The notes beneath the pieces are model-generated. The model made no database searches. It saw nothing but the letters and a program-made list of their open reading frames with translations, and had not been told where the DNA came from. Shown here piece after piece: positions 50,913 to 63,318 of a stretch of DNA of 64,000 bases; within the stretch, counting starts at the first letter, position 1, and each line of letters opens with the position of its first letter. The stretch comes from Sphingomonas sp. DG1-23. GTDB lineage: Bacteria > Pseudomonadota > Alphaproteobacteria > Sphingomonadales > Sphingomonadaceae. The stretch lies in the NCBI RefSeq assembly GCF_030730875.1, contig NZ_JAVAMA010000016.1:1-64000 (forward strand). The letters are read 5' to 3'. A program made the position numbers and the translations under genes.

Positions 50913-53900
50913 TCACCGCTCCGCCACCGTCATCACCGCATTGGGCAGCTGTGCGCGGATTTCGGGCGAATACATCGCTTCGACGCGCGTCGCCGGCAGG
51001 CTGAACCGGCCCGCGGCATTGAGCCGCATCACGTAGGAGATCGTGAAGCTGCCGCGCGGCACCCAGCCATAATAAGCCCGCCACGAGCCCTGGCCGCGCT
51101 CGATCCAGTTGGGCGAGACGCCTTCGGCGGTTCCGGCTTGCTGGTTGAGCATTTCGGATTGGCCGCCAAGACTGCCGATCACCGTCGCGCCGCTCGGCAC
51201 CGGATCGTTGATCACCACCCAGTTGCGTTCGGCCGAGGCCTCGACGCTGATCGTCACCTTGATCACGTCGCCGCGGGTGTGGCGCCCGGGCGCGAGCCCC
51301 TGCACCACGCTGACCTGCTTCGTCATCTTGTACCCGGCCATCAGCGGCTGGGTGAGCGGCACCGCCGCCTTGACCCGGACGAACGCCCACGGCCCCGCAC
51401 CGCCCGACTGACGCATCACCAACGGCGTCGCCGCCGTCGGCAGCGGCAGGCTGAAGCTGCGCTGCGGCTCGAGCAAGGGCCAGGGGCGGCTGACGCTGGC
51501 GCTGCCGAGGCTGGCGGTGGTGATCCCCGCGATCGCCTCGGCCGGATAGGCCGCCATGAATTTGCGCGCCGCGATCGTCCCCCAGGCGTTGCCGGTGGTG
51601 GTACCCCAATGACCGCGCTGCTGGCGCATCGCCACGCCGACCATCATCTTGGGCGTGTCGGCCTGCCAGCCGGGGCGGCCGAGCGTCACCATCACTGCCT
51701 TGATCGCCGCTTCGTCGTCCGACGACATCAGCCACCACGGCATGTTGCCCTTGTCGCTCAAGTCGATCCGGGTGCCTTCATAGACCAATCGGGTGCGCAG
51801 CACCTGCTCGGCATCGGCGCGGAGCTGCGTGCCGTTGGCGAGGCCGGGCACCTTGGCCAAGGCTGCGAGATAATCGGCGAGCGACGAGGTCGGCATTTCG
51901 TTCGGCGCGATGCCGAGCTGGCCGAGCATCGCAGCGGTCGCCGCGCCCTGCCGCGCGAGCGCCGAGAATGCCGCGATCCGCTGGAGCCGGACATCGCCAT
52001 AATCCTCGCGGCGCAGCCGACCGTCGAGCACTGCCTTCATCGCGTCGATCGCCTTGGCGCGCGGGCCGTCGGGCAGCGGCAGCCCCGCCTCGGCGGTGAT
52101 CGACAGGATATAGGCAGTGAGCGCTTCCGATCCCGCCCATTCGCCGGGGAAGTAACGCAGCAGCCCGTCACCGTCCTGATAGGCGGGAAGCTCGCCGGCA
52201 ATGCCGTTCCACATGCCGGTGTCGCCGAGCGCGATCGCGCGCGAGGTGCGCTGCTCGAGGCAGCCATAGGGATAGGCCGCCATATAATCGCGCACCCCCT
52301 GCAGCGGCGGCGCGAGCGTGTCGGCCAAGGTCACGTCGACCATGCCCAAGCCCGGCAAAGCGCCCGCCGGCGGGGCGATCGAGAAGCTGGTGCCTTCGCC
52401 GACCCGGGCGAGCGTCGCCGCCCAGGTCTCGACCGGTACCGCGGGGATCACGTCCTGCGCCACCGTCACCTTGTCGACTGCCTTGCCGTCGGCCGACCTG
52501 GCCGAGACGGTCCAGCTGAGCTGGCCCGCCGCGTTCGGCGCGGTGAGGTTCCAGCTGACCGGCGCGGCGCCGCCCGCCGGGATCTCGACGGTCAGCGGCT
52601 TGCCTTGGGCGACCGCCGGAGTGAGCGCGACCGTCGCGGTCACCCGCATCGGCTTGTCCGATCCGTTGCGCAGCGTGAACATCGCCCCGAACGTGTCGCC
52701 GGTGCGCACCACCTGCGGCACGCCCGGATAGATGCTGAGATCCTGATGGGTGCGGACGCTCGCTTCGCCGGTGCCGAAGAGTTGCGCGCCGTTGGTGGCG
52801 ATCGCAACCAGCTTGAACGAAGTCAGCGCATCCGACAGTGGCACCTGCACTCGCGCGTGGCCCTTGTCGTCGAGCGGGACCTTGCCCTTCCACAGCAATA
52901 CCGGCTGGAAATTCTCGCGGTTGAGCCCCGAGAGATCGCCGCCACCGCCGCCGCCGGCCTCGACCGCCTTCTTGCCGTAATGGCGCTTGCCGACCACCTG
53001 GGTCTGCGCCGTCGAGGTCAGCACCGAGATCGGCCGATCGCCCATCATCGCCGTCAGCACGTCCCAGCTCTCATTGGGGGCGAGCTGGAGCAGCGCCTCG
53101 TCGACCGCAGCGAACGCCACGTCCGCCTCGCGTGCCGACGATCCGTCGGGGTTCTTCACCTGAATGTCGACGTTGGCCATGTCGCGCGCCGCATAGGTCG
53201 CCTTCTCGGCCTTGACCGCGACGCCGAGCCGATGCCCTTCCCAGCCGACCTTCACCTTGGCGATGCCGAGCCGATACGCCGGCTTGGCGAGGTCGACCGT
53301 CGCGGTCGGCTTGCCGCCATCCTGCGAGAAGGGCAGTCCCCAATCGCGCGCAAGGTTCGAGCGCCAATTGGCGAAGCCCGAAACACGCCCGCGCACTGCC
53401 ATCACCGAAACGTAGACGTCGGGCGCATAGGCGGCCGGCATCGGGACTTCGATCACCGGATCCTTGCCGCTCAGCCCGACGACGAAGCTCGACAGCACGC
53501 CCTCCCGCTCGACCGTGACCAGTGCGGTGGCCTCGCGGAACGGCATGCGGACCTGGAATTTGGCGGTCTCGCCGGCCTTGTACTCGAGCTGCTCGGGGAT
53601 GACGTCCATGCGGTCGCCATTGTCGCCGCCAAACCACCAATCGTCGTCGCCGACCAGCCAGGTCGAGCGCGTCGCGCGCGCGACATTGCCTTCTGCGTCC
53701 CTGGTCGTGGCGACGGCATAGACCTCGCCCGACACGCCCGGGTCGAGCTGGCAGCTCGCCAGCCCCTGCGCATCGGTCGTCGCGGAGCAGGTCGCGCCCA
53801 GCTTCGTCGTCTTCATCTGATTGTCGTACGCGTAGAAGCCGCCGATCAGCCGGCGCCGCGCCGTCAATATCTCGCGGCTGTACAGCTCGACGGATATGGC

Positions 53901-56669
53901 CTGATTGGCGATCGGCTTGCCCGAGGTATCAAGCGCGACGAAGCGCAGCCGCAAATCGTCCTGCTTCATCAGCCAGCCGTCGGTCTTGATGCCGAGCTGG
54001 ACCGCGCTGGTGTAGATCGGGATTCGCCGCGATGCGGTCAGGATCTCGCCATTGGCGTCCTGATAATCCATCTCGATCTGCATATTGGTCGGCTGGTCGA
54101 GACTCTGCGGCACCTCGACCGAGGTCCGCGCAGTGCCGTCGCCGCCCAAGGTGACCGGCAAGGTCTGGGTCGGCGGCAGCGGAGTCGATTCCTCGTCGGT
54201 CTCGTCGTCGCCATTCAGGGGTTTGACGCCTTCGGTCAGCGCGCGGCCGCCGAAGCTGTAGCTGTCATAGCCGTCCGGAGTGCTGATTCCCTCGAACCAG
54301 CCGACGCGGAGCTCGACCGGCAGATTGCCCGCGCCGCCGCCCGACAAATAGCCGACGAACAGGTCGAGCGGCAGCGTGCTTGGCCGCACCGCGGCTTCCT
54401 TGGGCCCGGCGACCGAGGCCTTCATCGTCGGGAGCTTGTATTCGTCGATCTTGAACGACTGGCTGGTGTAGACGACTTTCTCGTCGCCATCCTCGGTGCG
54501 CACGACCTGGACGTCGTAATCGCCCATCTTGGCGCCCTGCGGCGCGGTCCATTCGGTCTCGCCGATGCCGTTGGCGTCGATGCTCAGCGGCAGATCGTAC
54601 TTGGTGTCCGAGCCGCGATGCGACAGGCGCAGCGTGCCGGTAAAGGCCGGCGACGTGCCGAAGCCGCCGGCGATCGGCTGGCGGACGATGTGCTTCATGT
54701 GGATCGTCTCGCCCTGGCGGACGAGCGCGCGATCGAACACCGTGTGGAAAATCTGCTCCTGCTTCTGCCAGCCATAAGGCAGGTCGAAATCGAAGGGGCG
54801 GATGCCCTCGCCCCATTGGGTCAGGGTGAAGCTGAAATCGTCGGCCTTGCGCGCCGAGATCATCAGTGGCGAATCATTGCCGCCTTCGCAGCTCGAATAG
54901 GTCTCGGGCTCAGGTAGTCCGGCAGGAACGCCGAGCCGGCCCGACGCATCGGTGGTGCCCTTGGCGAGGACCTGCCCGGTACAGCTGTCGGTGATGCGCA
55001 CCTCGGCGCTGCCGACGCCCTTGCCGCTGTCGAGCGCAGTCACCCAGACCAGCGACTGGTCGCGGCCCCATTTGAAATGCACGCTCATATTGGTGACGAG
55101 CGCGCCAGCCGCGACGTAGCGCGGGCTGTTGCGGCCGAGCAGCGCATTGCCGAGCCGCGGGCTGGCGAGCTCGACGACGTAGAATCCGGGCTTGGTCAGC
55201 GGGATCCCGACGACTTCGAAATCCTTGCCCTTGCCGGGGAGCGAGACCTGGAACGGCTTGCCGGTCGCCGGGGTGAGCAAGGGCTTCGCCCCCGTCTGGT
55301 TGATCTGGATCGTCTCTTCGCCGCGCCGGATGTTGTCGCTCTTGGTCTCGGCGGCATCGTCGATCGCGCGCAGCCATCTGGCGATCTCGCCGTCGCCGCC
55401 CTCGACCTTGAGGCTCTGGCCGCCGACCGCCATCTGGTTGCCGGCGAGCTGGCCCTCGACGTTGCGCACGGTGACCGGGAGCACTCCGCCCTCGGCGGCT
55501 TCGAGGATGCCGAAATCGGCGGCGAACTTTACCAGCGGCGGCGCCTCGTCGAAGCGCACGTCGAGCGGGAAGCGCTCGCCATTGGAGAGTTTCCGGCCGC
55601 TTTCGTCGGTGACATTGGCCGGCAGCGTCAGCTTCGCGGTCACCGCCGCAGGGAGCGGCGCCTTGAACTTGACGTCGGCGATCGTAGCCTTGCGCTTCTC
55701 CTCGTCGGAGAAGACCGGGGTCAGCGCCTTGCCGTCGGGCAAGGTGATGCGGATCGCCTCGGCCTGCGCGCGCGGGATCGGCGCCGAGAAGCGCACCCAT
55801 GCGTCCTGCACCGGGCTGCAGCCGGCCTGCGCATTGACTCGCGAGCATTCGAAGCGCGCGGCGAACGGCTTGCGCACGGTGAAGTCGAAGCGCTGGTCGG
55901 TGCCCGCGGTGCGGGCGCCGGCCGCAATGTCCTTGCCCCAGACCAAGGCGACGTCGCGGCCCGGCGGGAGCGGCCGGCGGCATTTGAGCGCGACGACGCT
56001 GGCGGTCGCTTTGGCGCGATCGGCCTCGCTGGCGGGAAGCGCCTTGGGCAGCCCGGCTTCTTCGAGGAAGCTCTGCACTGCCCATTGATCGGTGCCGAGC
56101 CCGGCGAGCAATTTGCCCGGCACGTCGGCGGGAAGCACGTCGACCGGGATCTTCTCGCCGACGCCGTCGACCGCGCAATAGGCATGCGCGCCGACCGAAG
56201 CGCGATCCGGCGCGATGTTGGCGGCGACGAGGAACGTCTGGTCCTCCTCGATCTGCCCGCCATAGCGGCTCGGCAGTACCGCGCGGGCGATCGGGCCGCC
56301 GCTGTCGACGGTGAATTTGGTCTGGCCGGTCAGCGCGTAGCCGGCGAGGCTCTTGAGCTTGTCCCTCAGGGTGAAGGTGCAGGTCACCCCGCCGGGGAGC
56401 GGGCTGGCGAATTCGTGGACGAAGGTCTGCTGGTCGACCCAACGCCCTTCGCCCCCGACCGGGCATTCGACGTTGAACGGCCCTGCCGCGCGCGGATCGC
56501 CGAGGGGAACCATCGCCTGGTTGAACCGCGCGGTGAACCGCTCGATCGCGCCGCCCCCGACGCCGGGCGTGGCCATTTCCACCTGCGGGCTGTTGTCGCC
56601 CATCGCCAGTGTCGCGCCGAGCGGCGCGGCGATCAACGCCAGGATCCCCAGCCGGGCAGCGAGCTTCAT
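50913..56669 (-). CDS. Bacterial alpha-2-macroglobulin family protein
   Basis: A 1918-residue periplasmic protease trap. The N-terminus MKLAARLGILALIAAPLGAT is a signal peptide without an evident lipobox, unlike E. coli YfhM, which is a lipoprotein. A series of macroglobulin domains precedes the bait-like region; the thioester motif is YPYGCLEQRTSR (Cys near residue 1470, C-L-E-Q), followed by the alpha-helical complement-like domain and a receptor-binding-like C-terminal domain (YSPEIRAQLPNAVMTVAER). The thioester is intact, so covalent capture of proteases is expected. It precedes pbpC, matching the view that both respond to cell wall breach. Confidence 0.95.
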   Translation of the reverse strand: MKLAARLGILALIAAPLGATLAMGDNSPQVEMATPGVGGGAIERFTARFNQAMVPLGDPRAAGPFNVECPVGGEGRWVDQQTFVHEFASPLPGGVTCTFTLRDKLKSLAGYALTGQTKFTVDSGGPIARAVLPSRYGGQIEEDQTFLVAANIAPDRASVGAHAYCAVDGVGEKIPVDVLPADVPGKLLAGLGTDQWAVQSFLEEAGLPKALPASEADRAKATASVVALKCRRPLPPGRDVALVWGKDIAAGARTAGTDQRFDFTVRKPFAARFECSRVNAQAGCSPVQDAWVRFSAPIPRAQAEAIRITLPDGKALTPVFSDEEKRKATIADVKFKAPLPAAVTAKLTLPANVTDESGRKLSNGERFPLDVRFDEAPPLVKFAADFGILEAAEGGVLPVTVRNVEGQLAGNQMAVGGQSLKVEGGDGEIARWLRAIDDAAETKSDNIRRGEETIQINQTGAKPLLTPATGKPFQVSLPGKGKDFEVVGIPLTKPGFYVVELASPRLGNALLGRNSPRYVAAGALVTNMSVHFKWGRDQSLVWVTALDSGKGVGSAEVRITDSCTGQVLAKGTTDASGRLGVPAGLPEPETYSSCEGGNDSPLMISARKADDFSFTLTQWGEGIRPFDFDLPYGWQKQEQIFHTVFDRALVRQGETIHMKHIVRQPIAGGFGTSPAFTGTLRLSHRGSDTKYDLPLSIDANGIGETEWTAPQGAKMGDYDVQVVRTEDGDEKVVYTSQSFKIDEYKLPTMKASVAGPKEAAVRPSTLPLDLFVGYLSGGGAGNLPVELRVGWFEGISTPDGYDSYSFGGRALTEGVKPLNGDDETDEESTPLPPTQTLPVTLGGDGTARTSVEVPQSLDQPTNMQIEMDYQDANGEILTASRRIPIYTSAVQLGIKTDGWLMKQDDLRLRFVALDTSGKPIANQAISVELYSREILTARRRLIGGFYAYDNQMKTTKLGATCSATTDAQGLASCQLDPGVSGEVYAVATTRDAEGNVARATRSTWLVGDDDWWFGGDNGDRMDVIPEQLEYKAGETAKFQVRMPFREATALVTVEREGVLSSFVVGLSGKDPVIEVPMPAAYAPDVYVSVMAVRGRVSGFANWRSNLARDWGLPFSQDGGKPTATVDLAKPAYRLGIAKVKVGWEGHRLGVAVKAEKATYAARDMANVDIQVKNPDGSSAREADVAFAAVDEALLQLAPNESWDVLTAMMGDRPISVLTSTAQTQVVGKRHYGKKAVEAGGGGGGDLSGLNRENFQPVLLWKGKVPLDDKGHARVQVPLSDALTSFKLVAIATNGAQLFGTGEASVRTHQDLSIYPGVPQVVRTGDTFGAMFTLRNGSDKPMRVTATVALTPAVAQGKPLTVEIPAGGAAPVSWNLTAPNAAGQLSWTVSARSADGKAVDKVTVAQDVIPAVPVETWAATLARVGEGTSFSIAPPAGALPGLGMVDVTLADTLAPPLQGVRDYMAAYPYGCLEQRTSRAIALGDTGMWNGIAGELPAYQDGDGLLRYFPGEWAGSEALTAYILSITAEAGLPLPDGPRAKAIDAMKAVLDGRLRREDYGDVRLQRIAAFSALARQGAATAAMLGQLGIAPNEMPTSSLADYLAALAKVPGLANGTQLRADAEQVLRTRLVYEGTRIDLSDKGNMPWWLMSSDDEAAIKAVMVTLGRPGWQADTPKMMVGVAMRQQRGHWGTTTGNAWGTIAARKFMAAYPAEAIAGITTASLGSASVSRPWPLLEPQRSFSLPLPTAATPLVMRQSGGAGPWAFVRVKAAVPLTQPLMAGYKMTKQVSVVQGLAPGRHTRGDVIKVTISVEASAERNWVVINDPVPSGATVIGSLGGQSEMLNQQAGTAEGVSPNWIERGQGSWRAYYGWVPRGSFTISYVMRLNAAGRFSLPATRVEAMYSPEIRAQLPNAVMTVAER

Positions 56670-56854
56670 TGCAACCAATCCCCCAAAAGGCGCGCGCACC
56701 CTAGCCGTCACGGAGAGTCAGGCCAACGCCGAATTGACTGACTCCGAAACGGACAGGAATCGACCTGCGCACGCGCCAGTCAACTTGATCATTTAATAAA
56801 CAATGCGGAAGATGACTGCATCCGAATCGGAGATATGGCGGTGATGGGACGATC

Positions 56855-58243
56855 ATGCTGGTCACCGCGATAGATGCAATTGCCCGCGAAGCGACTCTGT
56901 TCGCTGCGATCTGGTTCCTTGTCGGCGGCGTTGACGATCTTCTGGTCGACCTCATCTACGGCGCAAGATGCCTTCATCTGGCGACGTTTTGCCGGATTCG
57001 GGCGTCGCACGTGATTTCGATGCCGGATACCGGGATTCCGCCCGGCCGGATCGTCGTCTTCGTTGCGGCGTGGGACGAGGCGCGGGTGATCGGCCGAATG
57101 CTGCATACCGCGCTCGCCCGCTTCGCCCATGAGGATTACCGTATCTATGTCGGCACCTATCCCAATGACCCTGCGACGATCGCGGCGGTCGCCGACGTGG
57201 CGGAGGCGGATCCGCGCGTCCGGCTGGTGATCGGCAGTGCGCCGGGACCGACGACAAAGGCCGATTGCCTCAATGCCTTGTGGCGCGCGCTGCTGCGCGA
57301 CGAGGTGGCCGAAGGCTTCACCACGCTGGGCATCGCACTCCACGACGCCGAGGACATCGTCCACCCGCAGGAACTCGCTGTCTATGCCCGCTGGCTCCGG
57401 CATTGCGCGACCGTCCAGCTCCCGGTCATCCCGCTTCCCCATCCCCGGTCGCGGTTCGTCGCAGGGCATTATTGCGACGAGTTCGCCGAGGCGCATGGCA
57501 AGGTGCTCGTCGTCCGCCAGGCGCTCGGGGCGGGGCTGCCGCTCGCCGGCGTGGGCTGCGCGATCCGCCGCGACATGCTCGGCGCGATCGCCGCGGCGCG
57601 GGGCGGCGCGCCGTTCGACGCGACCAGCCTCACCGAGGATTACGAGCTCGGCCTGACGATCGGCGCGATGGGCGGTCGCGTGTGCCTCGCGCGCGTCGCC
57701 GAAAGTCCCGGCGGCCCGCCCGTGGCGGTGCGGGCGTATTTCCCCGACACGCCGGCCGCCGCGATCCGGCAAAAGGCGCGCTGGCTGACCGGCATCGCAC
57801 TCGCCGGCTGGGACCGCACCGGCTGGCGCGCGACATTGCACCCCGGCGATCACTGGATGCGGATGCGCGATCGCCGCGCGACGCTCGCGCTGCCGGTGCT
57901 CGCGATCGCCTATGCCACCTTGCTGCTGTGGAGCGCCTCGGCATTGCTCCATCTGCTCGATCGCTCGGCGATGCCTGCACTTTCTTCGGCGGTGCGCGCA
58001 TTGCTCTGGACCAATTTCGCGCTGCTGCTCTGGCTGCTGCTCGTGCGCGCGGCGTTCGTCCAGCGTGCTTATGGCTGGCGCGAGGCATTGTGGTCGGCGC
58101 CGCGAGTGCTGGTCGGCAATTACATCGCCTTGTTCGCCGCCCGCCGCGCGATCGCGCTCTATGTCCGGATCCTCTTCGGCGCCGCGCCGCGCTGGGACAA
58201 GACCGACCATCAATTTCCCGACTTGCCGCAGGCCACTCCGTGA
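56855..58243 (+). CDS. NfrB-type membrane glycosyltransferase, short form
   Basis: A 462-residue family 2 glycosyltransferase. An N-terminal membrane segment (about 12-38) is followed by the GT-A domain with VVFVAAWDEARVIGRML, HDAEDIVHP (DAED at 164-167), the acceptor motif TEDYELG (260-266) and RQKARW (305-310, Q-x2-RW type), then three or four C-terminal helices. This matches NfrB (phage N4 adsorption protein B) but ends at residue 462, whereas E. coli NfrB continues with a cyclic di-GMP-binding MshEN domain. It probably makes and exports a glycan across the inner membrane. Its stop overlaps the start of the barrel protein (GTGA). Confidence 0.88.
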   Translation: MLVTAIDAIAREATLFAAIWFLVGGVDDLLVDLIYGARCLHLATFCRIRASHVISMPDTGIPPGRIVVFVAAWDEARVIGRMLHTALARFAHEDYRIYVGTYPNDPATIAAVADVAEADPRVRLVIGSAPGPTTKADCLNALWRALLRDEVAEGFTTLGIALHDAEDIVHPQELAVYARWLRHCATVQLPVIPLPHPRSRFVAGHYCDEFAEAHGKVLVVRQALGAGLPLAGVGCAIRRDMLGAIAAARGGAPFDATSLTEDYELGLTIGAMGGRVCLARVAESPGGPPVAVRAYFPDTPAAAIRQKARWLTGIALAGWDRTGWRATLHPGDHWMRMRDRRATLALPVLAIAYATLLLWSASALLHLLDRSAMPALSSAVRALLWTNFALLLWLLLVRAAFVQRAYGWREALWSAPRVLVGNYIALFAARRAIALYVRILFGAAPRWDKTDHQFPDLPQATP

Positions 58244-59259
58244 CCGGCCAGGGGCGGCCGATCCGGTTCCTCGCCCTGGTCCTGTTGGGCTGGGTCGGCG
58301 TCCGCATCGCCTTGCTCTGGTCCGCGACCGGATCGCTGCCCGAGGCGATCCGCGCCTTTTCACCCATCGCAGCGGCGCCCGATCCGTCTCCCGCGCCGCG
58401 GCAGGTGCGCCGCCTCACGCTGTCCGCCGAACCCCGGGCAAACCCTTCGCCACTTCCGTACGCGCCCGCCGCAGCGCCCCGGGCGCGACCCATGGCTGTC
58501 TCCGCCGCGGACCCGGAGCGCGTTCAAATGGCGCTGATGGGCCTGATCCAATATGGCGTACCGGCGATCGTCGGCGCCGCCGCCACGCCGTTGCCGCGCG
58601 CTGCCCAGCCCGAGACTCTCCCCGCTTCGCCTTCGCGCTGGTCCGCCAGCGCATGGCTGGTCACCCGCCCCGGCACCGGCCTCGGCGCGGCCCCCGGCGC
58701 GAGCCAGCTCGGCGGCAGCCAGGCTGGGCTCCGCGTCGCGTGGATGCTGTGGCCCGACCAGCGTCTCGCCGCCTTCGGCCGATTGGCGGCGCCGCTTCGC
58801 GGCAAAGGCACCGAAGCATCGCTCGGCCTCGAATGGCAGCCGGGCCGGGCACCGGTGCGCCTCGTCGCCGAGCAGAGGTTCGGGATCGACGGGACTCCCG
58901 GCGGGCCCGGGCTGGGGATCGTCACAGGTTACGATGGACCGGTCGCGCCGGGCTTCAGGCTCGAGACCTATGGCCAGGCCGGCGCGATCCGCCGCCATCG
59001 CACCGAACCCTATGCCGATGGTGCCGCGCGGGCGATGCTGACGCTGACCGAGACCAGCGGCATGCGCCTCGCGCTCGGTGGCGGCGCATGGGGCGCGGCG
59101 CAACGCGATGCGGCGCGCTTCGACATCGGTCCCTCGGCCACGCTCGCGGTGCCGCTCGGCAAGCGTAATGTCCGCCTCGCGCTCGACTGGCGGCAGCGCG
59201 TCGCGGGCGATGCGCGTCCGGGATCGGGCCTCGCGCTCACGCTAGGGAGCGATTTCTAG
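58240..59259 (+). CDS. NfrA C-terminal-like outer membrane barrel protein with N-terminal helix
   Basis: A 339-residue protein starting at GTG 58240, overlapping the glycosyltransferase stop. Residues 9-26 (FLALVLLGWVGVRIALLW) are a membrane segment or uncleaved signal. Residues about 40-130 are Pro/Ala-rich linker. The rest is a beta-barrel-like domain with the NfrA C-terminal pattern: LGGSQAGLRVAWML, ASLGLEWQPGRAPVRLVAEQ, GFRLETYGQAGAIRRH, LALGGGAWGAAQRDAARFDI, LALDWRQRVAGDARPGSGLA, ending LTLGSDF. The TPR part of full-length NfrA is absent. It probably forms the outer membrane exit for the NfrB glycan. Confidence 0.82.
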   Translation: MTGQGRPIRFLALVLLGWVGVRIALLWSATGSLPEAIRAFSPIAAAPDPSPAPRQVRRLTLSAEPRANPSPLPYAPAAAPRARPMAVSAADPERVQMALMGLIQYGVPAIVGAAATPLPRAAQPETLPASPSRWSASAWLVTRPGTGLGAAPGASQLGGSQAGLRVAWMLWPDQRLAAFGRLAAPLRGKGTEASLGLEWQPGRAPVRLVAEQRFGIDGTPGGPGLGIVTGYDGPVAPGFRLETYGQAGAIRRHRTEPYADGAARAMLTLTETSGMRLALGGGAWGAAQRDAARFDIGPSATLAVPLGKRNVRLALDWRQRVAGDARPGSGLALTLGSDF

Positions 59260-59308
59260 GCCAACGGGCTTTTGCAGCACGGCGCAAACGCGGTATCGCC
59301 TGCAGCCG

Positions 59309-60223
59309 ATGGATCTGTATCTTCCAATCGCCAATCTCTCGGTCAATGCGCTGGTGATCGTGGCTCTCGGCCTCGGCGTCGGGCTGCTTTCGGGCATGTT
59401 CGGGGTCGGCGGCGGGTTCCTCACCACGCCGCTGCTGATCTTCTACGGCATCCCGCCCACCGTCGCCGCCGCCTCCGCCGCGAGCCAGGTGACCGGCGCC
59501 AGCGTCTCGGGGGTGTTCGCCCATTTCCGGCGCGGCGGCGTAGACGTGCATATGGGGCTGGTGCTCGTCGCCGGCGGCGTGATCGGAAGCATTGTCGGCG
59601 CCGGCGTGTTCACCTTGCTCCAGGCCACCGGCGTGATCGATACGGTGATCGCGATCCTCTATGTGCTGATGCTCGGCTCGATCGGCGGGCTGATGCTCCA
59701 CGAATCGGTCACTGCGGTCCGCGTCGGCCGCGGCGCGGTGCCGCCGCGACCGCGCAAGCGCCGCCACCACCCGCTCGTCGCGATGCTCCCCTTGCGCTGG
59801 CGCTTCTACCGCTCGGGCCTGTACATCTCCCCGCTCGCGCCGCTGCTGCTCGGCTTCTTCACCGGCATCCTCACCGTGCTGCTCGGCGTCGGCGGCGGCT
59901 TCATCCTCGTCCCCGCGATGCTCTATCTGCTCGGCATGGGGACGCAGGTCGTCGTCGGCACCTCGCTGTTCCAGATCCTGTTCGTCACCGCCGCGGCGAC
60001 GATGGTCCACGCCACCACCACCAAGGCAGTCGACATCGTCCTCGCGGCCCTGCTGCTGCTCGGATCGGTGGCGGGGGCGCAGCTCGGCGCGCGCTTCGCT
60101 CAGAAGGCCAAGCCCGAATATCTCCGCCTCGCGCTGGCGCTGATCGTCCTCGCAGTCGCTTTGCGCATGTTGCTCGGCCTCGCCTGGCGGCCCGACGAAA
60201 TCTATTCGGTCGAGTTGCTGTGA
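59309..60223 (+). CDS. TauE/SafE family sulfite/anion exporter
   Basis: A 304-residue, eight-helix inner membrane protein. The duplicated motif is plain: GLLSGMFGVGGGFLTTPLLI in half one and GFFTGILTVLLGVGGGFILV in half two. A basic loop (RVGRGAVPPRPRKRRHHP) separates the halves. Family members export sulfite, sulfoacetate or other organosulfur anions. Its stop overlaps the GTG of the following TIGR02186 gene by 4 bases; the pair is conserved in alphaproteobacteria, suggesting a joint function. Confidence 0.92.
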   Translation: MDLYLPIANLSVNALVIVALGLGVGLLSGMFGVGGGFLTTPLLIFYGIPPTVAAASAASQVTGASVSGVFAHFRRGGVDVHMGLVLVAGGVIGSIVGAGVFTLLQATGVIDTVIAILYVLMLGSIGGLMLHESVTAVRVGRGAVPPRPRKRRHHPLVAMLPLRWRFYRSGLYISPLAPLLLGFFTGILTVLLGVGGGFILVPAMLYLLGMGTQVVVGTSLFQILFVTAAATMVHATTTKAVDIVLAALLLLGSVAGAQLGARFAQKAKPEYLRLALALIVLAVALRMLLGLAWRPDEIYSVELL

Positions 60224-60990
60224 GGCGCGCTGCCGCCGCCCTGCTGACGCTCGCCGCGCCGTTGCTGATGGGGCAGGCCAAGCCGGTGCTCGTCCCCGAC
60301 GTGTCGCAACGCAATATCGAGATCGCCTATTCGTTCACCGGCGCCGAATTGCTGCTGTTCGGCGCGATTCTCTATCCGCGCGGACGTGCCCCCGATCCCG
60401 AGGACGGCCCCGTCGACATCGTCGTGGTGGTGCGCGGCCCGAGCCAGGCGGTACTGGTGCGCGAGAAGGAGAAGCTCGCGGGCATCTGGCTCAACGCCGA
60501 ATCGACGCGCTATCGCTCGGCGCCGAGCTTCTACGCAGTCGCCTCGTCGCGCCCGATCCGCCGAATCGTCGACGAAAGGACCCGCGCGATCTACGAGCTC
60601 GGCGTCGACAGCCTCCAGCTCTCGCCCGCCTCGGGCGCGGCGCCCGAGGTGCAGGACCGGTTCGATCGCGGGCTGGTCGATCTGCGCACCCGCAGCGGCC
60701 TGTTCTACGAGGATTCGAACGCCGTCGAGATCACCGGCGGCGTGCTGTACCGGGCGCGGATCGACATTCCGGCGCGCGTTCCGGTCGGGCGGTTCACTGC
60801 CGAGACCTTCCTGATCCAGAACGGCCGGGTGCTCGCCGCCGCGGTGCGCCCGATCGACATCCGCAAATCGGGCTTCGAGCGCTTCGTCGCGACCAGCGCC
60901 GAGCGCTATTCGGTGCCTTATGGCTTGGTCGCGGTGGCGCTTTCGGTGCTGTTCGGCTGGGGTGCCGGCGCGCTTTGGCGGCGCTTCTGA
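60220..60990 (+). CDS. TIGR02186 family periplasmic/membrane protein
   Basis: A 256-residue protein beginning at GTG 60220 within the end of the TauE gene. A signal sequence (AAAALLTLAAPLLMGQAK) is followed by the family core: LVPDVSQRNIEIAYSFTGAE, LLLFGAILYPRG, IVVVVRGPSQAVLVREKEK, IWLNAESTRYRSAPSFYAVA, and a C-terminal helix (YGLVAVALSVLFGWGAGALW). TIGR02186 proteins are known only as partners of TauE-like exporters. The periplasmic domain may bind the exported anion; this is inference. Confidence 0.88.
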   Translation: MRRAAAALLTLAAPLLMGQAKPVLVPDVSQRNIEIAYSFTGAELLLFGAILYPRGRAPDPEDGPVDIVVVVRGPSQAVLVREKEKLAGIWLNAESTRYRSAPSFYAVASSRPIRRIVDERTRAIYELGVDSLQLSPASGAAPEVQDRFDRGLVDLRTRSGLFYEDSNAVEITGGVLYRARIDIPARVPVGRFTAETFLIQNGRVLAAAVRPIDIRKSGFERFVATSAERYSVPYGLVAVALSVLFGWGAGALWRRF

Positions 60991-61072
60991 TTCATCGGAC
61001 AAGTCGTTCGCGAACAACCCAATATTTACCCTCTTCGGGCATGGTGCGCTGCGTAACCCCGGGGAGTATCCG

Positions 61073-62746
61073 ATGGAAGGTCAGTTCGGCGCGCGCGCCT
61101 TCGATAATGCCGCGCCCGTTTCGTCGGCAGATTCGGTGCCGGCGCGCAGCCAGGCGCGCGCGATCGGCGCCGTGCTCGAAATCGCCGGCTCGTCGAGCCA
61201 GGTGATGTTCGATCCCGCCGAGATCGAGGCGCTCGGCGCCAGCAGCGACGTCGCAGTCGCCAATTCGGGGCAGGTCGGCAGCCAGGTCAAGATGCGCGTC
61301 GGCAGCACATGGCTGATCGCCAATGTCCGCGCGCTCCGCCTCGACTCGAGCGGCGACCGGATCCTCGCCCAGGTCGATTTCCTCGGCGAGGGCGACGAAG
61401 AGAAGCTCACCGGCAAGCTCTACAAGTTCCGCCGCGGCGTCACCCGCTATCCTACTCCCGGCTGCGCGGTGTTCCCGGTCTCGACCGCCGATCTCAAGCA
61501 GATCTACGCCGCCGACGATCGCGCCCATATCGAGATCGGCAACGTCTATCCGACCAAGGACATCCGCGCCGCGCTCTATGTCGATGCGATGCTCGGCAAG
61601 CACTTCGCGTTGCTCGGCTCGACCGGTACCGGCAAGTCGACCGCCGCCGCCCTGATCCTCCACCGCATCTGCGAGCTCTCGCCGCAGGGCCATATCGTGA
61701 TGATCGATCCGCACGGCGAATATGCCAGCGCGTTCAAGACCACCGGCGCACTCTACGACGTCTCGAACCTGCAGATGCCCTATTGGCTGATGAACTTCGA
61801 GGAGCATTGCGAGGTGTTCCTCACCACGCAGGGCTCGGACCGCCAGGTCGATGCCGACATCCTCGCCAAGTGCATCCTGCTCGCCAAGGGCAAGAACCGG
61901 CTCGCCCAGGAATTCGGCAAGCTCACCGTCGACGCGCCGATCCCGTATCTGCTCTCGGACCTCACCCAGATACTCCAGCTCGAAATGGGCAAGATGGACA
62001 AGGCGACCGATACGGCGCCCTATCTCCGCCTGCGCAGCAAGATCGACGAGATCAAGGGCGACCCGCGCTATACCTTCATGTTCTCGGGCATGCTCGTCGC
62101 CGATTCGATGGCGAACTTCCTCGCGCGCATCTTCCGCCTGCCGGGCGACGGCAAGCCGATCTCGATCATCGACGTGTCGGGTGTGCCTTCGGAAATCACG
62201 TCCGTGGTCGTCGCCGTGCTCAGCCGGATGGTGTTCGACTTCGCGATCTGGTCGCGCGGCGAGGCCAAGCGCCCGGTGCTTCTGGTCTGCGAGGAGGCGC
62301 ACCGCTACGTTCCCAACGAGCGCAACGCCGACGGCTCTTCGGTAGGCCGGATCCTCAGCCGGATCGCCAAGGAAGGGCGCAAATACGGCGTATCGCTCGG
62401 ACTGATCACCCAGCGTCCGTCGGATCTCGCCGAAGGCGTGCTCTCGCAATGCGGCACGATCCTGTCGATGCGGCTCAACAACGAACGCGACCAGGCCTTC
62501 GTCAAGGCAGCGATGCCCGAAGGCGCGCGCGGCTTCCTCGATTCGATCCCCGCGCTGCGCAATCGCGAATGCATCGCCGTGGGCGAAGGCGTCGCGACGC
62601 CGATCCGTCTGCTTTTCGATCCCCTCGAGGATGGCAAACGCCCGGCATCGGACGACCCGCTCTTCTCCGAACTGTGGCGCGAAAGCGGCGGCGAGGAACT
62701 GATGCTCGAGCGCACGATCAAGCGCTGGCGGTCGCAGGGAAGATAA
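61073..62746 (+). CDS. HerA-like ATP-binding protein (DUF87)
   Basis: A 557-residue cytoplasmic hexameric ATPase of the HerA/FtsK class. An N-terminal HAS-barrel-like domain (about 1-150; AIGAVLEIAGSSSQVMFDPA, GDRILAQVDFLGEGDEEKLT) precedes the motor with Walker A LLGSTGTGKSTAAAL (about 180-194), MIDPHGEYASAFK, Walker B PVLLVCEEAHRYVPNE, and the sensor region GVSLGLITQRPSDL. In archaea and some bacteria HerA works with the NurA nuclease in end resection; no nurA is next to it. GGGGAG precedes ATG 61073. DNA translocation is expected, the partner is unknown. Confidence 0.9.
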   Translation: MEGQFGARAFDNAAPVSSADSVPARSQARAIGAVLEIAGSSSQVMFDPAEIEALGASSDVAVANSGQVGSQVKMRVGSTWLIANVRALRLDSSGDRILAQVDFLGEGDEEKLTGKLYKFRRGVTRYPTPGCAVFPVSTADLKQIYAADDRAHIEIGNVYPTKDIRAALYVDAMLGKHFALLGSTGTGKSTAAALILHRICELSPQGHIVMIDPHGEYASAFKTTGALYDVSNLQMPYWLMNFEEHCEVFLTTQGSDRQVDADILAKCILLAKGKNRLAQEFGKLTVDAPIPYLLSDLTQILQLEMGKMDKATDTAPYLRLRSKIDEIKGDPRYTFMFSGMLVADSMANFLARIFRLPGDGKPISIIDVSGVPSEITSVVVAVLSRMVFDFAIWSRGEAKRPVLLVCEEAHRYVPNERNADGSSVGRILSRIAKEGRKYGVSLGLITQRPSDLAEGVLSQCGTILSMRLNNERDQAFVKAAMPEGARGFLDSIPALRNRECIAVGEGVATPIRLLFDPLEDGKRPASDDPLFSELWRESGGEELMLERTIKRWRSQGR

Positions 62747-62856
62747 GACCTTTCACGCTGTGGGCGAGGCGCGTGCCGGTCCTCGGCAGAAAGCGCCGGC
62801 CTATCCGGCCCGATCGACCTGGTTTTCGACAATAGCGAGGCGATCGCGCGCCGGCG

Positions 62857-63318
62857 TCAAGTATCGCGTGGATCGGCCAGATCGGGGAACAGCGCTTCGA
62901 TCGCGCCGCGCAGATCGTTGGTGCCGGGAAGCAGGGCGTAATGGTCGAGCAAGCGCTTCACCAACGCCGCCTTGTGCGGACCGATGCCCGGCATCGCTTC
63001 CAGACCGGGGAGGTCCGGGTCGGAAAGCCTGTCCGCCAGATCGCCGAGCGTTCGATAGCCCGCGGCGGCCAGCTGCCGCCGCAAACCCGAAGGCAATACC
63101 GACCGGCTCACCGGAAGGTCGCGATCGGTGGCGTCCGGCACGGCGCGCAGCAATCGCGTGCTGCCCGCTTTCTCCCGCGAGAGCGTCCGGCGAATATGAC
63201 CCAATTGGCCGGAACTGAGCTCAAGCTGCCGTCCGATCTGTCGATAGGTACAGCCCGATGCGCGCAGCGCACGCGCCTCCTCCAGATTAAGCGTAGCTTG
63301 CTGCGACCGGCTCAACAT
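62857..63318 (-). CDS. Small HTH plus helix-hairpin-helix protein
   Basis: A 153-residue protein. The N-terminus (SQQATLNLEEARALRASGCT, YRQIGRQLELSSGQLGHIRR) is a resolvase/sigma-like helix-turn-helix. Residues about 85-140 contain a helix-hairpin-helix: LRRQLAAAGYRTLGDLADRL and LEAMPGIGPHKAALVKRLLD, the G-I-G-x-x-K-A hairpin that binds the DNA backbone. Both halves suggest DNA binding without a catalytic domain. The function is unknown. It ends 110 bases from the convergent HerA-like gene and lies 44 bases after the M23 peptidase, so it may share that gene's transcript. Confidence 0.78.
   Translation of the reverse strand: MLSRSQQATLNLEEARALRASGCTYRQIGRQLELSSGQLGHIRRTLSREKAGSTRLLRAVPDATDRDLPVSRSVLPSGLRRQLAAAGYRTLGDLADRLSDPDLPGLEAMPGIGPHKAALVKRLLDHYALLPGTNDLRGAIEALFPDLADPRDT

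Follow-up and report, generated by a model that had tools for sequence, protein, structure and literature searches.

A short NfrB-type glycosyltransferase and an NfrA-type barrel protein without tetratricopeptide repeats form a family-wide gene pair in Sphingomonas and kin

A 64,000-nucleotide stretch of DNA from Sphingomonas sp. DG1-23 (contig NZ_JAVAMA010000016.1, positions 1 to 64,000), referred to below as the window, carries two overlapping genes, one for a short family-2 glycosyltransferase (GT) and one for an outer membrane barrel protein, here called the partner. Judged by its sequence, the pair is a real, conserved variant of the NfrB-NfrA (NfrBA) pair of Escherichia coli; its homology to NfrBA is firm, a role as a glycan exporter is likely, and a tether between the two membranes is plausible. 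The reading favoured here, with moderate confidence, is that NfrB-NfrA, a synthase-dependent system for glycan export, is present in a reduced form that is shared across the family and whose outlet is probably held to the inner membrane by a tether. The family in question, f1, is that of the window's genome, and its named members are Sphingomonas and kin; f3, f4, f6 and f8 are sister families of the same order. The coordinates of all features are collected in Table 1.

The gene pair and its glycosyltransferase

The partner gene starts within the stop of the GT gene (GTGA), with an overlap of 4 nt at 58240-58243. This bears out an earlier, model-written description of the DNA (the original prediction), which had delimited the same two open reading frames (ORFs) and called them translationally coupled. 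Exactly the same overlap occurs in 150 of the 158 f1 ORFs that were picked by their position behind a GT, and is therefore not a product of chance. Nearly every locus examined keeps the two genes together and overlapping. Their GC contents at the three codon positions (0.712/0.522/0.829 for the GT and 0.758/0.637/0.835 for the partner) are similar to those of neighbouring genes. No Rfam element was found in 54000-63000 and no sigma-70-type promoter in 56600-61050, and terminator-like sites in the latter interval were at the level of shuffled sequence (2 found, with a shuffle mean of 2.1).

The assignment of the first protein to the NfrB type is confirmed by curated models. It scores 536 bits against NCBIfam NF011307 (PRK14716.1-5, 464 positions), above the curated cut-off of 431, and NfrB itself is among its best curated matches: the E. 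coli-type model NF008411 gives 303 bits over positions 12-478, below its cut-off of 1170. A GT without NfrB relatives among its best matches, the outcome named beforehand as telling against the prediction, was thus not found. NF011307 is a model that NCBI already holds for the short GT; it covers the GT only, without partner, architecture or function. The closest named relative, from Sphingomonas gei, shares 84-85% identity. The window GT carries the motifs HDAED, LTEDYE and QKARW; across 14 GTs of the family HDAED, LTEDYE and QK.RW are invariant, and across 20 GTs that include E. coli NfrB and the sister families HDAED, ED and Q..RW remain so, with the T of TED in at least 90%. The AlphaFold model of the GT has a mean pLDDT of 89.6, and its best solved fold matches in Foldseek are bacterial cellulose synthase and viral hyaluronan synthase, at TM-scores of about 0.4-0.6; a sequence search of solved structures returned no match for the GT or the partner profile. 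The enzyme is an NfrB-clade GT with a cellulose/hyaluronan-synthase-like predicted fold and catalytic signatures, ending just before the motif of NfrB that binds cyclic di-guanosine monophosphate (c-di-GMP).

That end lies 10 residues past the conserved WDKTxH motif, ahead of the first c-di-GMP motif site of NfrB. In E. coli NfrB, two LG-type motifs, at 490 and 518, come after a WDKTTHDFP stretch. According to the available text of a published c-di-GMP study (PMC8669469), L490, G491 and L537 are residues that were mutated there, and its survey reports MshEN in 1,705 of 1,841 NfrB homologs, with only occasional alphaproteobacterial members. The absence of MshEN from the window GT, already noted in the original prediction, holds both for the Pfam domain and for the tandem motif. 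Pfam MshEN has no match anywhere in the window's genome, with the E. coli control positive, and the model also misses the short tandem motifs of sister GTs. None of 152 f1 GT tails carries the tandem motif, and the longest is 28 aa (7 of the 159 loci gave no tail); from these tails and the lack of MshEN in the window's genome it follows that the short GT is usual in f1.

For comparison, 29 genomes of the order outside f1 had a GT match, of which 20 were chosen and 18 obtained. In 7 of these 18 sister-family GTs (L181, L183, L184, L187, L189, L190 and L193) the tandem motif stands right behind the W-KT-H tail, and 11 lack it. It is present in 6 of the 7 f8 GTs and, as in f1, absent from the f3, f4 and f6 members examined. 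In the seven sister GTs that have it, the C-terminal tail consists of nothing but this NfrB-like tandem c-di-GMP-type motif, without a Pfam-detectable MshEN, and is possibly a minimal c-di-GMP receiver.

The partner protein

At E<=1, the partner has no Pfam or NCBIfam match. Its AlphaFold model, based on 71 sequences, has one helix at residues 6-26 and two short ones at 33-40 and 92-101; besides a linker of low confidence it contains 12 strands over 134-337, most of them with pLDDT >90. The second protein thus predicts as a transmembrane barrel and not as the soluble beta-sandwich that had been named as the contrary outcome. Among the families listed by VIA-align, and in Foldseek, it resembles outer membrane barrels (FapF with Z 12.8, the COG4313 channel with 12.7, autotransporter domains, and KdgM/NanC with about 10-11); Z values of about 10-13 indicate a barrel fold, not a family. 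Charged residues occupy 20 of 73 presumed lumen-facing positions and 3 of 74 outward ones, a contrast that is partly built in, as strand facing was assigned by hydrophobicity; the conserved charges facing the lumen comprise 11 R/K and 9 D/E. The C-terminal residue is F in 144 of 153 complete ORFs behind f1 GTs.

The barrel is homologous to that of NfrA, and the tetratricopeptide repeats (TPRs) are gone. The profile of f1 partners matches the profile of sister partners at E 4e-17 over 221 columns, and the sister profile in turn matches an NfrA profile (E. coli and nine alphaproteobacterial sequences) at E 8e-68; the direct match between f1 and NfrA reaches E 2e-5. In score, the f1 profile reaches 133 against the sisters and 47.2 against NfrA. 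As controls, 40 column shuffles reached at most 18.9 and reversed alignments 17.9, BcsC_C (5 rows) gave 17.1, and Phenol_MetA_deg (15 rows), itself a 12-strand family, gave 19.1. The C-terminal motifs are similar as well (DWR..VAG.....SG.A.T and YR.K.AG.....SG). In the alignment of sister partners (A5), NfrA_C is matched by each of the 16 rows, and TPRs are present in at least 13 of them, which match TPR_2; the alignment leaves out L183, which is split by a frame change, and L195, which has no clear partner. No f1 partner among the 71 and the 31 scanned matches any TPR family, in line with the TPR part having been reported missing. The description of the barrel as NfrA-like has to be qualified: it stands by profile-profile comparison by way of the sister families, and it is not visible to Pfam NfrA_C, which matches 0 of the same 71 and 0 of the 31 f1 partners and finds nothing in the window's genome.

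Ahead of the barrel, the single membrane helix and Pro/Ala linker of the original prediction are both recovered; residues 41-120 in 74 Sphingomonas-type rows contain 18% Pro and 20% Ala. Within the hydrophobic helix lies the motif W/Y-x3-R. Counted in the first 60 residues of ORFs chosen by position alone, it is present in 155 of 158 f1 ORFs (133 of 136 when only distinct sequences are counted) and in 2 of 18 sisters. Because the first partner rows (A2, L031-L060) were picked by regular expressions containing W/Y-x3-R, the corresponding counts there (74/74 and 28/28) and the invariance of G5, R6, P7, W18 and R22 in A2 are biased. This alignment represents 70 of 80 Sphingomonas-type loci; it omits L071, L072, L088, L096, L132 and L138 (extraction), L123 (contig end), and L085, L090 and L125 (not ending in F). 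The mean fraction of the top residue in A2 is 0.67 in the helix, 0.28 in the linker and 0.62 in the barrel, the N-terminal columns being partly biased by the row choice. R9 and F10 are found in 71 of 71 rows of A2. A charge lies within the hydrophobic core in 73 of 74 Sphingomonas-type partners, and this recurrent charged residue speaks against a plain signal peptide. The sequence of the N-terminal helix is strongly constrained. From these features we infer, with the original prediction, that one chain could span the envelope.

Distribution and history

A survey of the order shows that the short pair is the usual form of the whole family f1 and not a peculiarity of one genome. NF011307 matches 231 of 296 genomes of the order, 189 of them above its cut-off. 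Within f1, 202 of 213 genomes match at E<=1e-3 (199 strongly, three weakly) and 11 are without a match. Searched as a single sequence, the partner matches 33 of 37 same-genus genomes, its own included; 24 genomes from the order's other families gave no match. In a class-wide sample, an NfrB-like GT (E<=1e-40) was found in 15 of 385 genomes; five belong to f1, and the other 10 also have NfrA_C. The profile of f1 partners hit 4 of 289 genomes of the class, and each of these belongs to f1.

By ORF position and motif, a helix-bearing partner follows the GT in 155 of 159 f1 loci, some of which represent the same genome or species twice. The four not counted are L138 and L230 (no partner), L078 (partner present) and L022 (genome G034, no GT match at 1e-20). 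Barrel homology was detected by tblastn in 79 of 80 Sphingomonas-type loci and in 19 of 20 other f1 loci, and altered C-termini were seen in L085, L090 and L125.

In the GT tree, all 17 f1 rows form one clade (100/100, stem 0.83). It stands next to f6 (92/83) and f3 (88/96), both without the tandem motif, and f8 lies elsewhere; the f6 and f3 forks fall below the star threshold of the program, L207 sits on a long branch, and several forks are uncertain. The simplest reading of these sequences is that the tail motif disappeared at an earlier point, on more than one occasion, and that the TPRs were lost on the f1 stem. If the NfrBA reading is right, the pairs offer a graded set, with motif and TPRs, with TPRs only, or with neither, in which the roles of the c-di-GMP tail and of the TPR scaffold in synthase-dependent exporters can be asked about.

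Proposed export role, alternatives and neighbouring genes

The combination of a synthase with an outer membrane barrel is a logic known from BcsA-BcsC and PgaC-PgaA, and BcsA has a GT fold like that of the window GT. A cellulose/BcsC type was rejected: BcsC_C (BCSC_C) has no match in the window's genome, and its profile is at noise against the partner (17.1). KdgM and NanC, porins with 12 strands that are not known to have an inner membrane helix or a synthase partner, share the barrel fold (VIA Z 10-11); the structural alignment shows 5-9% identity, and a search by sequence gave no match to them. The sister-family pairs (L178-L194) likewise combine a GT with an NfrA_C barrel; the f1 pairs differ from them in the partner matches given above.

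The closest described system is NfrB-NfrA-YbcH of E. coli, the exporter of the N4 glycan receptor. As far as the available text of its two reports goes (PMC8669469, PMC8669472), it also has a GT2 synthase gene overlapping an outer membrane barrel gene. Both its GT and its barrel are homologous to those of the window. The window pair differs in lacking MshEN and the tandem c-di-GMP motif as well as the TPRs, and has a constrained helix and a Pro/Ala linker instead; its barrel is predicted with 12 strands, not 16, and TauE, not YbcH, lies next door. The third gene in the window's cassette is of the TauE/SafE family and not YbcH, for which the rest of the genome was not searched. A WecB-type epimerase is present in the window's genome, as one Pfam Epimerase_2 match on another contig. 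UDP-ManNAc as the sugar donor is no more than a suggestion by analogy with E. coli. A search of the literature, lacking most subscription papers, found no title or abstract on the Sphingomonad pair.

In the proposed mechanism, the GT would polymerise an activated sugar and push the polymer through the inner membrane. The helix of the partner would stay uncleaved in that membrane next to the GT, with its recurrent Trp/Tyr and Arg face keeping it there, and the linker of about 100 aa would bridge the periplasm where NfrBA has its TPR scaffold. In the outer membrane, the 12-strand barrel would serve as the outlet, and control would no longer act through c-di-GMP binding to the GT's own tail. A bolder version is put forward only tentatively: the partner may be one polypeptide permanently in both membranes (helix docked on the synthase, disordered periplasmic strap, exit barrel), which in f1 would replace the TPR scaffold and c-di-GMP switch of NfrBA and make a two-protein, tether-type exporter coupled to a TauE-PF09608 transporter unit. 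If these proposals are true, a pair that is widespread in a large group of bacteria from the environment gains a likely function; current libraries give "glycosyl transferase family protein" for the GT and nothing for the partner. They would also provide a candidate chain anchored in both membranes, to our knowledge a rare architecture, and point to a surface glycan as a candidate phage receptor. The pair itself has no PHROGs match that would indicate phage origin, and its best viral fold matches, none better than E 3e-4, are to porins and to outer membrane or uncharacterised proteins of phages.

Several observations weigh against this export reading, beginning with the missing NfrA_C match and a direct f1-NfrA match that is modest (hhalign probability 76%). 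The partner model has 12 strands, and E. coli NfrA is described, in the available text, as 16-stranded (PMC8669472); in the model, the lumen charges could plug the barrel as well as line a pore. Nor is the pair indispensable: no strong GT match is present in 14 of 213 f1 genomes, and no partner match in 4 of 37 same-genus genomes, two of which are 99-100% complete. L138 and L230, with near-identical GTs (L138:517-1923, L230:2539-3945), have a GT without a barrel partner; directly behind the GT lies an opposite-strand gene, which we take to resemble xseA. In the same-genus genome G034 (L022, L258; 3570-5457 on the minus strand in L258), tblastn detects only a 37-residue GT stretch and partner residues 116-339, in front of TauE and PF09608; this locus is a decayed pair. 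At the N-terminus, the confidence of the helix model is moderate, with means of 52, 76 and 69 for the 10-residue blocks, and a crude rule places an AxA-like site behind the core in 23 of 74 partners of Sphingomonas type and in 12 of 28 from the rest of f1.

These last sites, and the fact that outer membrane barrels normally lose their signal, favour the alternative that survives best, which is nevertheless unlikely. It keeps the same exporter but takes the N-terminal helix for an unusual cleaved signal peptide and the partner not for a two-membrane protein but for a usual outer membrane protein that trails a long disordered tail in the periplasm. As a rule, signal peptides show no constraint at individual positions, yet W/Y-x3-R is found in nearly all f1 ORFs, R9 and F10 do not vary in A2, and a charge sits in almost every core; the sister families f8 and f3 also pair an N-terminal hydrophobic stretch with a Pro-rich one.

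Another alternative, distinctly improbable, denies that the barrel is a polymer outlet: the GT would add or polymerise a sugar destined for the envelope (a lipid or a periplasmic glycan), with the tethered barrel acting as a structural or signalling membrane link tied in function to TauE-PF09608. Most f1 loci share a conserved cassette in the order GT, barrel, TauE, PF09608, which the original prediction did not mention. In Sphingomonas-type loci with full flanks, TauE lies directly behind the partner in 63 of 70 and PF09608 directly behind TauE in 64 of 70, and of 20 loci from 15 other f1 genera, 19 contain the complete set of four. The 12 strands and the many lumen charges could mean a barrel that is narrow or plugged, which would suit such a role, as would the G034 locus, where TauE and PF09608 still lie behind the barrel part and most of the GT goes undetected. 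Conserved gene order is no proof of shared function, the fold of the GT is like that of processive synthases, and both parts are homologous to NfrB and NfrA of E. coli, a system for which the available text of its reports gives exopolysaccharide and phage evidence (PMC8669469, PMC8669472). Export through the barrel is accordingly preferred. That the resemblance to NfrA is generic outer-membrane-barrel similarity, in a pair related to NfrBA by its GT only, is highly improbable and was rejected in spite of the missing NfrA_C match and the 76% direct match, given that shuffles, reversed alignments and the two unrelated barrel families (17-19, against 133 for the sisters and 47 for NfrA) are all at noise, and that the partner shares its gene position behind the same GT and a similar C-terminal motif.

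Table 1. Features of the gene pair and its cassette in the window
Feature	Coordinates	Strand	Basis
Short NfrB-type family-2 glycosyltransferase, 462 aa	56855..58243	+	ATG start, TGA stop
Partner, divergent NfrA-type outer membrane barrel protein without TPRs, 339 aa	58240..59259	+	GTG start, TAG stop
Partner segment G5-W27, hydrophobic helix with W/Y-x3-R (W18, R22)	58252..58320	+	AlphaFold, motif count
Linker rich in Pro/Ala and mostly of low confidence, partner residues 41-132 (approximate)	58360..58635	+	AlphaFold, composition
Predicted 12-stranded transmembrane barrel, residues 134-339, C-terminal end ...GSGLALTLGSDF	58639..59256	+	AlphaFold, fold matches, charge alternation
TauE/SafE-family (TSUP) transporter, PF01925, third gene of the cassette	59309..60223	+	Pfam
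PF09608 (Alph_Pro_TM) protein, fourth gene of the cassette, start codon approximate	60202..60990	+	Pfam

TauE and PF09608 were found beside none of the 18 sister loci (tblastn at 1e-5, 8-12 kb per locus), where sequence divergence could hide them, because the partner query also matched none there. A literature search on TIGR02186/PF09608 found no paper, and a link of TauE/PF09608 to a sulfur-bearing glycan is speculation. Downstream of the cassette, at 61073-62746 (+), lies a HerA/DUF87-type ATPase gene, whose NCBIfam matches to "anti-phage-associated helicase HerA" are far below the cut-offs. On the other side, divergent from the pair, a large bacterial alpha-2-macroglobulin gene (1932 aa) occupies 50913-56711 (-), and 28 of 80 Sphingomonas-type loci have such a gene next to the GT.

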